33,664 bases of DNA, from the NCBI GenBank assembly GCA_016281925.1, contig JAEEJP010000034.1:1-33664 (forward strand), in the 5' to 3' direction. The notes under the pieces were generated by a model. That model did not search any database. It was not told where the DNA came from and was given only the letters and a program-made list of their open reading frames with translations. Origin of the DNA: Methanomassiliicoccaceae archaeon. GTDB lineage: Archaea > Thermoplasmatota > Thermoplasmata > Methanomassiliicoccales > Methanomethylophilaceae. This document shows, in pieces, positions 2,891 to 25,678 of this stretch; position 1 is the stretch's first letter; every line of letters begins with the position of its first letter. Made by a program: the position numbers and the translations under genes.

Positions 2891-3421
2891 TCACATGCCG
2901 GGGAATTTTTCGTCGTATCTTTTCTTGCAGACGGCCACCATTTCCTTCGCGTCATCGGCGTCCAGCATCTCCTTGGCCTCGGTGACCTTGCCCTCGAGGG
3001 CCTTGTAGACGGAGAAGAAGTGCCTGATCTCCTCGGTGAGATGCTTTGGGAGCTGATTGATGCTGTCGAAATCCCTGAAGTGGCGGTCCTTGGTGGGCAC
3101 GGCTATGACCTTGTCGTCCTGGTCGCCGCCGTCCACCATCTTGAGGAGCCCGATGGGCTTGCACTCGACGAGAGTGTTAGGGAACAGGGTCTCGGAGCAG
3201 AGGAGGACCACATCGAGGGGATCTCCGTCGAAAGCATAAGTCCTGGGGATGAAGCCGTAGTTCCAGGGGTATGCGGTGGAAGTGGAGAGGACCCTGTCGA
3301 GAGCGAGCAATCCGGTTTCCTCGTCGATCTCATACTTGACTTTGCTTCCCTTGGGGATCTCGATTATTGCGGTGAATTTGTCGGGCGTGACCCTGTCTTT
3401 GGAGAGCTCGTGCATTATCAT
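2891..3421 (-). CDS. ppa: inorganic pyrophosphatase (family I, soluble)
   Basis: A 176-residue enzyme that hydrolyses pyrophosphate and drives biosynthetic reactions. Family I hallmarks are IEIPKGSKVKYEID near residue 20, YPWNYGFIPRTYAFDGDPLD near 51-70 with the metal-binding Asp residues, and VDGGDQDDKVIAVP near 96-109, then KDRHF. The length is normal. The ATG at 3419-3421 was chosen because it overlaps the TGA of the upstream gene (ATGA) and because archaeal ppa starts close to here; a second ATG lies two codons in. A TATA-like TATATTATAT at about 3451-3461 inside the upstream gene may also drive it. Confidence 0.95.
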   Translation of the reverse strand: MIMHELSKDRVTPDKFTAIIEIPKGSKVKYEIDEETGLLALDRVLSTSTAYPWNYGFIPRTYAFDGDPLDVVLLCSETLFPNTLVECKPIGLLKMVDGGDQDDKVIAVPTKDRHFRDFDSINQLPKHLTEEIRHFFSVYKALEGKVTEAKEMLDADDAKEMVAVCKKRYDEKFPGM

Positions 3422-3777
3422 TGGTATCGCGGCCCGAATAGCCTTGGACTGATATAATATAGATTCCTGCCTGCCGACGGATGGCCCGATCGGCTGAGCT
3501 TGGAGATCTGCCATTGCTTCAGGTTGAACGTGCAGCACTGGACCTTGGAGGACACTATGGTGCCGTTCTTCCAGAGCCTCATGAGAGTCGGCTTTATGCT
3601 CCTCACGTATTCGAGATATGTGGCGTTGTCCTTGAACTCCTCCGGGCGGAGCTTCTTGACTATGGCGCGGGTGCATATCATCGGGTTCTCTTCGATGGTT
3701 CTCAGCAGCTCTTCCTCTGTGATCTCTTTCATAGGCATCCAGTCGGTTCGCAGATATATGCTGTTTTTCCCGTCCAA
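3418..3777 (-). CDS. small hypothetical protein, possible helix-turn-helix
   Basis: Up to 119 residues from TTG 3775-3777, or 104 from the ATG at 3730-3732 (MKEITEEELL). I do not recognise the family. The segment EITEEELLRTIEENPMICTR followed by AIVKKL and KPTLMRLWKNGTIVSSKV resembles a winged-helix pattern: a helix, a recognition-like helix and a short wing. It overlaps ppa by four bases (ATGA), so the two are co-transcribed. A TATA-like ATATAT lies about 27 bases before ATG 3732, favouring a leaderless start there. Its frame is the same as that of the upstream MetV-like gene, separated by one TAG and no other stop, so a readthrough fusion is possible. Confidence 0.6.
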   Translation of the reverse strand: MDGKNSIYLRTDWMPMKEITEEELLRTIEENPMICTRAIVKKLRPEEFKDNATYLEYVRSIKPTLMRLWKNGTIVSSKVQCCTFNLKQWQISKLSRSGHPSAGRNLYYISPRLFGPRYQ

Positions 3778-3816: not shown

Positions 3817-4224
3817 CTATGCGCCCGCGCGGACTGGAATCCCGGCTCGTGACAGCCTGGGGATGCCGTCCGGATCGAGGTATCCCACGCCGAGCGTCCT
3901 GACGGGATTCAGAACTTCGATTCCGGAGGCCTTCCTCGCGCACGACGCGCCTATCCCGCAGCAGAGGGCGAGGATGACGTCGCACCCGCCGGCTTCGGCG
4001 GCCATCTTTCCGGCGTTCTTCATGAAGCATGCGGCCGAGGTGGACTGCACCCCGGCGACATCGATCCCGTCTTCCCTGAGCTTCGAAGCGATGGCTTCGG
4101 CATATTCCTTCCCGCCGGCCCCGCAGAATCTGGCGCAGGTGTTGCATGTCCATACGTAAGCTTTCTTCCCTCCGAGGGCCTCCCTGATCTCGGGATAGCC
4201 CTTGGAACGCTCCATCACCATCAT
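3817..4224 (-). CDS. MetV-like (methylene-THF reductase C-terminal family) iron-sulfur protein, UAG-ended
   Basis: A 135-residue cysteine-rich protein resembling the first half of the MTHFR_C/MetV family, the partner of MetF in acetogens and some methanogens. Visible are TCNTCARFCGAGGKEYAE near residue 25, a helix-rich part containing STSAACFMKN, and ILALCCGIGASCA near 85-97, followed by LNPVRTLGVGYL. The second cysteine domain of full MetV (a CxxC near the C terminus and NGPCGG) is absent. It may bind an iron-sulfur cluster for C1 or corrinoid chemistry; this is inferred. The start lies in a run of ATG codons (4224, 4221, 4215), with ATATAT about 27 bases upstream suggesting a leaderless transcript. 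The stop is TAG (3817-3819). Confidence 0.65.
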   Translation of the reverse strand: MMVMERSKGYPEIREALGGKKAYVWTCNTCARFCGAGGKEYAEAIASKLREDGIDVAGVQSTSAACFMKNAGKMAAEAGGCDVILALCCGIGASCARKASGIEVLNPVRTLGVGYLDPDGIPRLSRAGIPVRAGA

Positions 4225-12623: not shown

Positions 12624-13421
12624 TCAGTCGTCCTCGACTATCTCTTCGGGAGCCCCGGCGAACTTGACCAGCGCATAGGATTCCATGAAATGCAGGTTCC
12701 CTGGGAGGACGAGGGTGTGGAGCGGCTCCCCCAGGTCCATGGCCAGGAGATCGCGCGGATACCCGGCGAATACCTTCTCCTCCGGGGATCCCACCTTGGA
12801 AGCAACGCAGAGGAGCGTCTTGTCGGTGATGAGGCCTTCCCCCCACTTGCTCTCGCCCTACAGCAGCCACTCTATGGCCTGATGGGCGGTCATGTATCTG
12901 TGCTCGTCGGCGCGGATGTCCAGGAGGATCATCGTGTGGAGGCCGCGGGCCTTGTTCTCCATGATGTGGTCGTACGGGGACTTGGGGTGGTAATTCCTCT
13001 CCAAGAAAGGAAGGGTGACCGCCCTCCCGAATTTGTAGGGCTGGAGGCCCAGCGATGTGGGGCATCCGGAGAATATGGAAACTCCATGGAACATCCTCAC
13101 GGGGATCCCGGCTTCTGCGGCCTGAATCCTCAGATCCACGTGGGTGGTTGCCAGCATGGTGTCGCCGGCGGTCACGAAGGCTACCCTGTGGCTCATGGCA
13201 TCCCTGATGATGTCCTCGCCTTCCTCCACCTGCGCCCTGTACAGGACGTTGACCTTCTTCCCGACGGCCTTTTCGAGATCCTCGGGGGAAGTCCCTATCA
13301 GCGTGGACGTATAGAATTCGGCGTAGATGATGTCGCATTCCTTGAGGGCGTTGAGAGCCTTGACGGTCATTCCGTCGGTGCCGCTGAGGCCCAGCCCGAC
13401 GAATACGAGTTCGGATGTCAT
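12624..13421 (-). CDS. dphB: diphthine synthase with an in-frame UAG codon
   Basis: DphB methylates the modified histidine of elongation factor 2 on the way to diphthamide. The first 187 codons (start LVFVGLGLSGTDGMTVKA; VAFVTAGDTMLATTHVDLRI; YMTAHQAIEWLL) are followed by TAG at 12858-12860, and the same frame continues for 77 residues (GESKWGEGLITDKTL; FAGYPRDLLAMDLGEPLH; VLPGNLHFMESYALVKFAGA) to TGA 12624-12626. These are the missing C-terminal third of the family; with the UAG read through the protein is 265 residues, the normal size. In an alignment with Pyrococcus DphB from memory there is no gap and the UAG falls on a lysine. UAG as pyrrolysine or readthrough is the best explanation; a recent nonsense mutation is the alternative. 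ATG 13419-13421 has GGAGGG upstream. Confidence 0.9.
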
Positions 13422-24111: not shown

Positions 24112-24357
24112 ATGCAGACCTACCTCATCGAGGACACCGGCGAAACCGCCGTCATCGGATTCAAGGATGCCAACGTGACCCTTATAACCCCTCTTATCAA
24201 GACGCTTTACGACGACTCCAACGTCGAGATGGTGAGGTATGTGGACAAGCATCCGGAGCTCGAGGACAGGACTCTCTTCGTCCAGGTCAAGAAAGGGAGC
24301 GCCCTGGAAGCCATCAAGAAAGCGTCCCTCGCGATCGCCGATTATTTCAGGCTCTGA
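24112..24357 (+). CDS. rpo11: DNA-directed RNA polymerase subunit Rpo11 (RpoL)
   Basis: An 81-residue subunit that pairs with Rpo3 in the assembly platform of archaeal RNA polymerase. The core ITPLIKTLYDDSNVEMVRYV and the KHPELEDRTLFVQVKKG segment, ending in a C-terminal helix (ALEAIKKASLAIADYF), match Rpo11/Rpb11. Length is normal. ATG 24112 follows the TATA box at the expected distance. The truD gene begins one base after the stop, so they form an operon. Confidence 0.95.
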   Translation: MQTYLIEDTGETAVIGFKDANVTLITPLIKTLYDDSNVEMVRYVDKHPELEDRTLFVQVKKGSALEAIKKASLAIADYFRL

Positions 24358-24358
24358 C

Positions 24359-25678
24359 ATGGGCTACAGAGAATGCCGCACAGCAGAGGCCGGCATCGGG
24401 ATGAGATGCTACCTCTGCGACACCGACGGGACCGGCGGGCATCTGAAGACGGTGCCTGAAGACTTCGTGGTGAGGGAGATCTCGGATCCCCCCAGACAGA
24501 AGGAGGACGGGAAATACACCATAGCGACCGTCACCACCCGCAACTGGGAGACCAACAGGCTGGTGAGGATGCTCTCCCGCTCCATGGGGATATCCCGGGA
24601 AAGGATAGGGTTCGCCGGGACCAAAGACAAAAGGGCCGTGACGACCCAGCTGATGTCTTTCTACGGGAATCCGGACCTCGGGAAAGTCGACCTCAAAGAC
24701 GTCGGGATAAGCGGCGCATACAGGGGCGCCCGCGGGATACAGATAGGCGACCTCATCGGGAACTCCTTCGAGATCACCGTCAGGGACTGCTCCGTGCCGA
24801 TGGACGAGGCGGAAAGCATCATTTCCTCAGACGTCGCGACGATCAAGAAGACCGGCGGATTCCCGAATTATTTCGGGGTGCAGAGGTTCGGGTCGGTGAG
24901 GCCGGTGACCCATCTCGTAGGCGAGAGGCTGGTCCGCGGCGATTTCGAAGGGGCAGTCAGAACCTACGTGTCTTTCACCACCCCTGAAGAGGACCCCGAG
25001 ATCGGAGAGAGAAGAAAAAGCTTCGAAGGCAGGGACGACTGGGGCGCAATGATGAGGGAGATGCCGGAGAACATGTCCTTCGAAAGGATGATGGCCGGCC
25101 ATCTGGCGGAGAATCCCGGCGACTGGACCGGAGCGATAGAGATTCTGCCCACCAACCTCCAGATGATGTTCGTGCATGCCTATCAGTCCTGCCTGTTCAA
25201 TGAGATGCTCAGCAGAAGGATGGAATCGGGGCTGCCGCTTAACATGCCTGCCGAAGGCGACATAATAATCCCTCTGGACTCCAACGGCATACCCCAGCAC
25301 GAGAACCCGATCCTCACGACGCAGAAGAACATCGACCTCGTCGCCAGGCAGGTCCGCGTCGGAAGGGCTTTCGTCACCATCACGCTGTTCGGCCAGGACA
25401 GCATCCTCAGCGAAGGGGAGATGGGTGAGATCGAAAGGAAGGTCATAGGGGAGCAGAAGCTCTCCCAGGAAGACTTCAACATCCCCGAGCTGCCGAGATG
25501 CAGCTCCAAAGGCGCCAGAAGGGAGATTCTGTGCCCGATGAAGGATCTGAAAAGCTCGGTCGGCGAGGACAGCTACACCCTGTCGTTCTCGCTGCCGAAA
25601 GGCAACTACGCGACCTGCCTCCTCAGAGAGTTCATGAAATCCGAGATGAGGGATTACCGAGGCAATACCGTTATATAG
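24359..25678 (+). CDS. truD: tRNA pseudouridine(13) synthase TruD, UAG-ended
   Basis: A 439-residue enzyme of the TruD family that makes pseudouridine 13 in tRNA. The catalytic aspartate is D90 in GFAGTKDKRAVTTQ. Other family parts are KTVPEDFVVREI near residue 30, GGFPNYFGVQRFGSVRP near 163, and the helical TRUD insertion after residue 200. The protein ends MKSEMRDYRGNTVI, where homology to other TruD proteins also ends. The stop is TAG 25676-25678; readthrough would add 12 residues, a second UAG and 4 more residues before a TGA inside the tRNA-Gly gene. So UAG most likely acts as a stop here. It is also part of the TATA box of that tRNA. Confidence 0.94.
   Translation: MGYRECRTAEAGIGMRCYLCDTDGTGGHLKTVPEDFVVREISDPPRQKEDGKYTIATVTTRNWETNRLVRMLSRSMGISRERIGFAGTKDKRAVTTQLMSFYGNPDLGKVDLKDVGISGAYRGARGIQIGDLIGNSFEITVRDCSVPMDEAESIISSDVATIKKTGGFPNYFGVQRFGSVRPVTHLVGERLVRGDFEGAVRTYVSFTTPEEDPEIGERRKSFEGRDDWGAMMREMPENMSFERMMAGHLAENPGDWTGAIEILPTNLQMMFVHAYQSCLFNEMLSRRMESGLPLNMPAEGDIIIPLDSNGIPQHENPILTTQKNIDLVARQVRVGRAFVTITLFGQDSILSEGEMGEIERKVIGEQKLSQEDFNIPELPRCSSKGARREILCPMKDLKSSVGEDSYTLSFSLPKGNYATCLLREFMKSEMRDYRGNTVI

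Follow-up and report, generated by a model that had tools for sequence, protein, structure and literature searches.

An in-frame UAG codon, probably decoded as pyrrolysine, in the diphthine synthase gene of a Methanomassiliicoccaceae archaeon

The interrupted dphB frame

The window, i.e., the whole stretch of 33,664 nucleotides that was analyzed, corresponds to G000:C56:1-33664, where G000 is the assembly of the source genome (1.96 Mb, 122 contigs, 86% complete). On its minus strand lies a gene for diphthine synthase, dphB, with a TAG in frame. The features of this gene are as follows.

12624-13421, minus strand: dphB (diphthine synthase), 265 residues with the UAG counted as an amino acid; matches TIGR00522 and aligns ungapped with 29 relatives
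12858-12860, minus strand: in-frame TAG, codon 188 of dphB, inside a predicted helix (residues 179-193)
12861-13421, minus strand: part of dphB upstream of the TAG, 187 residues; TIGR00522 214.6 bits, Pfam TP_methylase 84.7 bits
12624-12857, minus strand: part of dphB downstream of the TAG, 77 residues whose pattern of substitutions is constrained; TIGR00522 48.3 bits

Translated from 13421 to 12624, the frame yields 187 residues, the TAG (12860-12858), 77 residues and a terminal TGA, and besides the single TAG it contains no TGA, TAA or frameshift. The original prediction held that the 187 and 77 residues together make one complete DphB, and the comparison with TIGR00522, the NCBIfam dph5 model (length 258, curated cut-off 114.3 bits), bears this out. 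The read-through product scores 278.3 bits over model positions 2-257 of 258, which passes the cut-off and exceeds the scores of the two parts added (214.6 + 48.3), each of which matches the model. The first part alone also passes the cut-off and covers model positions 2-186; near-full coverage is reached only when the UAG is read through. As had also been predicted, no frameshift is needed, and the read-through product can be aligned without gaps to each of the 29 relatives compared, including the nearest, G029 (95% identity). Since the two halves belong to one family and stand in register without a frameshift, a chance arrangement is ruled out.

The part beyond the TAG appears constrained. 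In a 28-row alignment of DphB, in which two contigs are each represented twice, through two collections (L012/L040 and L014/L042), 22 invariant columns lie downstream of the TAG. The dN/dS ratio was estimated against G029, G026 and G001 (G018 was left out, its locus being on the other strand), and was 0.031 after the TAG and 0.056 before it against G029, 0.053 and 0.079 against G001, and 0.088 and 0.047, i.e., higher after the TAG, against G026. On the G000 branch, five synonymous changes and one other are located after the TAG, and 12 synonymous changes and four others before it. These ratios and branch counts, which are small numbers, are consistent with continued use of the 3' part and do not amount to proof of it. 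A separate restart of translation downstream of the TAG was considered as well and judged unlikely, because the first in-frame ATG, GTG or TTG is 22 codons away.

Codon 188 among relatives and in structure

In a survey across the order Methanomassiliicoccales, dphB was matched above the TIGR00522 cut-off in 129 of 147 genomes, a few of the matches being partial. Among the matches listed for these 129 genomes, G000 is the only one with a stop inside the dph5 match. A UAG that encodes a required pyrrolysine (Pyl), as in MtmB, would be conserved among orthologs, and the DphB UAG was found in 1 of 129; because the codon is private to G000, the view of it as a functional Pyl site under conservation was rejected. 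At a threshold of E <= 0.001, with weak paralogue matches counted, dph5 is matched in 73 of the order's 74 good genomes. No dphB above the cut-off was found in G031, a 96% complete genome of the same family. In another member of the family (G077:C1:95630-96386), the dph5 match falls into two pieces in different frames, and dphB looks frameshifted; the match over model positions 2-125 ends before codon 188.

The residue at codon 188 varies among the 29 relatives, with Glu in 11, Leu in nine, Thr in three, Ala in two, and Gln, Asp, Lys and Ile in one each. The original prediction placed the UAG opposite a lysine of Pyrococcus DphB, and three alignments with solved DphB chains, which we take to be those of Pyrococcus, do have Lys opposite the TAG and are ungapped there. 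It went on to derive the TAG from AAG by a single base change and asked whether relatives use UAG, AAG or AAA at this codon; here the relatives point elsewhere, with UAG private to G000, Lys in 1 of 29 and Glu the commonest residue. The four nearest relatives (88-95% identical) carry GAA (G029, 95%) or GAG (all three of G026, G001 and G018, 88-91%), and an origin from AAG was accordingly rejected. The alignment makes it likely that a Glu codon was changed to TAG. An AlphaFold2 model of DphB, with Lys standing for Pyl at position 188, has a mean pLDDT of 87.6 and places the codon in the helix 179-193. Judged by the residues found in relatives, codon 188 is a variable position that appears tolerant of substitution. 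Being private to one genome and located at a variable position, the UAG thus resembles a neutral replacement, and not a functional or regulatory Pyl.

Pyrrolysine machinery and UAG usage in the genome

The genes required for Pyl decoding, whose presence had been proposed as a check on the prediction, were all recovered in G000. The tRNA-Pyl gene (pylT), with anticodon CUA, adjoins pylS (255.9 bits); pylC (306.8 bits) and pylD (198.5 bits) are both above the cut-off; and pylB is split across the ends of contigs C94 and C8, each piece alone being under the cut-off. Across 11 stretches of G000 scanned, four tRNA genes were found, with the CUA anticodon in tRNA-Pyl only. G000 has two mtmB genes with one TAG in each; a search for MttB in the assembly, which is 86% complete, found none. 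Within the genus, pylS was detected in 28 of 31 genomes, in 27 of them over the cut-off.

UAG also appears to serve as a stop in this genome. Two genes of the window have TAG as their first stop.

3817-4224, minus strand: 135-residue gene, first stop TAG at 3819-3817, apparently the true gene end
24239-25678, plus strand: 479-residue gene, which we take to be TruD, first stop TAG (25676), apparently the true gene end

These assignments are based on G029, in which the genes end elsewhere and the sequence downstream is unconserved. In G029, the 135-residue gene terminates at codon 126 (TAA), and the intergenic sequence does not align in frame; the 479-residue gene stops about six codons earlier there, and the sequence past the TAG is not conserved. 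UAG is therefore not always sense in G000. The 135-residue gene (3817-4224, minus strand) shares its frame with 3418-3777 (minus strand), with the TAG between them, and constant read-through would produce a fusion. The window also has a gene for deoxyhypusine synthase (PF01916; 4863-5822, plus strand), the enzyme that modifies aIF5A and hence a second translation-factor-modifying enzyme; it has no internal stop.

We compared stop codons at same-frame junctions in 208 kb of G000, which is 10.6% of the assembly and was sampled from contigs already involved in the analysis rather than at random. In the six-frame comparison, 19 junctions passed the coding filter: nine TAG, nine TGA and one TAA. 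One protein continues across eight of the nine TAGs, namely in the two mtmB genes, dphB and five other non-methyltransferase genes; the ninth, at 3819, looks like the real end of the 135-residue gene. A PHP-domain gene lies just past the end of the window.

C56:33865-34716, minus strand: PHP-domain gene (NF004981) with an in-frame TAG; loci L079 and L094-L099

NF004981 scores 291.9 bits across the TAG of the PHP-domain protein, PF04414 spans the TAG of the D-aminoacyl-tRNA deacylase gene dtdA (C62:14103, L087), and PF00005 spans that of an ABC transporter ATPase gene (C97:22027, L086). Alignment to G029 carries a Sel1-repeat protein (C56:58707, L080) past its TAG, and likewise an NTP transferase, for which the family match across the TAG is far below the cut-off. 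No Pfam domain was found across any of the ten TGA or TAA junctions of the sample. Several of these separate two different domains, e.g., pylS and pylB; one concerns a protein without a Pfam match, and a less clear case has a run of Sel1 repeats on either side.

The same comparison was made where G000 is syntenic with G029, over some 66 kb. Genes continue as one protein past a first stop that is TAG in four of six cases and past one that is TGA or TAA in 0 of 44 (P = 6.5×10−5, Fisher's exact test, after manual removal of five of 55 frames as shadows; the count of 0 in 44 is our own reading of the junction results). In this syntenic part four genes are interrupted by TAG, two of them having the TAG also in G029, and by the same reading none is interrupted by TGA or TAA. 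One-step mutational paths in 50 syntenic genes lead about equally often to TGA plus TAA (2858) and to TAG (2833); transitions alone give 503 paths to TAG versus 269 to TGA plus TAA.

When G029 frames were aligned to G000, the unsorted internal stops numbered five TAG, three TGA and three TAA. Set aside on grounds of position were TGA 10590 and TAA 40938, which precede the G000 start by 180 and 45 bases, respectively; TGA 32393, the gene's own end; TGA 61795, in a frame overlapping two longer genes; TAA 4157, TAA 17532, TAG 17523 and TAG 28886, in frames antisense to longer genes; and TAG 35319, within the antisense shadow frame C56:35184-36437. After this sorting two TAGs remain, one in dphB and one in the NTP transferase gene. 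In the reverse direction, G029 has five TGA, four TAA and no TAG, these being unsorted counts. The frame C56:35184-36437, whose TAG is opposite Tyr in G029, was dropped as a shadow, because two abutting minus-strand ORFs occupy the region and its amino-acid identity to G029 (81%) is lower than the nucleotide identity (87%).

Some of these UAGs are shared among relatives. The TAG of the PHP gene (C56:34203-34201, 537 bases past the window) occurs in six of the 29 same-genus genomes with a match, which are the six most similar; in the remaining 23, Ala, Met or Ile is encoded at this site. Its presence in six species indicates that UAG as sense is not new in the clade. The PHP UAG is an inherited UAG outside the methyltransferases; six further genomes, outside the family, have one TAG somewhere in their PHP match, and in G006, which carries the PHP UAG, no pylS was found in an assembly 82% complete. 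The Sel1 TAG is present in G000 and G029 only, the best matches in the four other genomes with a match (G026, G018, G002 and G001) having no stop. The dtdA gene was matched in 28 of the 31 genomes of the genus, with a TAG within the match in G000 only; the match contains one TGA in 13 other genomes of the genus, which may be the genes' own ends. Shared and private UAGs thus coexist.

Origin and meaning of the dphB UAG

The complete pyl cassette, the UAG-bearing mtmB genes and the other genes with in-frame UAG make Pyl decoding the best reading of dphB, and the original proposal of a Pyl or read-through residue stands in this respect. In the scenario that we consider probable, tRNA-Pyl(CUA) would read codon 188 as pyrrolysine to yield the full-length, 265-residue DphB. 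The TAG would have arisen after the split from G029, by neutral change of a Glu codon at a tolerant site in a helix, and would have been retained because the lineage tolerates UAG as sense in many genes. We infer from the sequences that the residue is Pyl, that the replacement was neutral, and that read-through is sufficient for function. A neutral sense-to-UAG replacement in a lineage using UAG as sense is the most likely account. The stronger claim that the UAG ties the diphthamide of EF2 to Pyl supply and methylamine metabolism, with loss of pyl genes being costly, we regard as very improbable.

Alternatively, the genuine codon could specify Glu, the TAG having come from faulty sequencing or assembly or representing a minor strain variant. 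This would account for a TAG that is seen in a single assembly of 122 contigs and is private among the 129 genomes over the cut-off (among the matches listed), and one G to T change from GAG would suffice. Errors would, however, also create TGA and TAA, to which the mutational paths are about as numerous as to TAG, although transitions favor TAG; the interrupted syntenic genes all have TAG, and two of those TAGs recur in G029. An error or variant is thus unlikely in our judgment. We give still less credence to the idea that dphB is being lost, with the UAG terminating translation and leaving a dead 187-residue product. A truncated DphB is indeed unlikely to function, because 22 invariant columns lie beyond the TAG; loss is possible in the family, as the lack of a dphB over the cut-off in G031 suggests; and the few changes on the G000 branch after the TAG (five synonymous and one other) would look alike after a recent loss. 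Yet G000 has the pyl cassette and other genes running through UAG, the frame is free of TGA, TAA and frameshifts, its 3' part is constrained (dN/dS 0.03-0.09), and nearly all good genomes of the order (73 of 74, weak paralogues included) retain a match.

Least credible to us is a regulatory switch, in which Pyl supply, set by methylamine use, would determine the proportions of full-length and truncated DphB, thereby coupling EF2 modification to methylotrophy. UAG seems to be both stop and sense in G000, which makes competition plausible, and Borrel et al. (2014) put forward that the Pyl cassette can become essential through UAG codons in genes of major function (PMC4153887). Against a switch, the dphB UAG is in no other genome over the cut-off, among the matches listed, the position is variable, and there is no sign of regulation.

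With Pyl decoding of a neutral replacement, a translation-factor-modifying enzyme joins the set of genes in which UAG seems to serve these methanogens as a sense codon. The case suggests a route by which UAG may enter core genes, through small changes at tolerant sites in lineages with a Pyl system, and as such sites build up, the cell would become bound to retain that system. A gene caller treating UAG only as a stop would truncate DphB in G000. The UAG of the PHP gene, shared by six species and older, offers better material for asking if Pyl ever has a function outside the methyltransferases.

Within the literature searched, dphB is a new example of an in-frame UAG, and the phenomenon itself is known in the order. 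No report was found on diphthine synthase together with pyrrolysine, and none, among the matches listed, on a genome-wide Pyl code, on which recent work is said to exist. The excerpts available of PMC3941956, PMC11363022 and PMC10804542 contain nothing decisive on the UAG question.

The case can be set beside three known systems. One is a tRNA-His guanylyltransferase that reportedly comes from a Methanosarcina. It is a different enzyme from DphB, but similarly related to translation, and, by the title of the report, its Pyl is ascribed to neutral evolution (Heinemann et al. 2009). 'Ca. Methanomethylophilus alvus' belongs to the same order as G000 and likewise has pyl genes and TAG-interrupted genes with a homologous continuation; for this species the consulted portion of Borrel et al. 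(2014) gives 16 predicted Pyl proteins besides the methylamine methyltransferases and links them to the rarity of TAG stops, although the Pyl list in its Table 7 is without diphthine synthase (PMC4153887). The third is the rumen Methanomassiliicoccales strain ISO4-H5, reported to have 46 genes with an in-frame amber codon, methyltransferase genes and insertion elements included. While the main text on ISO4-H5 does not contain 'diphth', 'deacylase' or 'PHP', amber codons are located there, as in G000, in metabolic genes too, e.g., that of adenylate kinase (PMC5011839).
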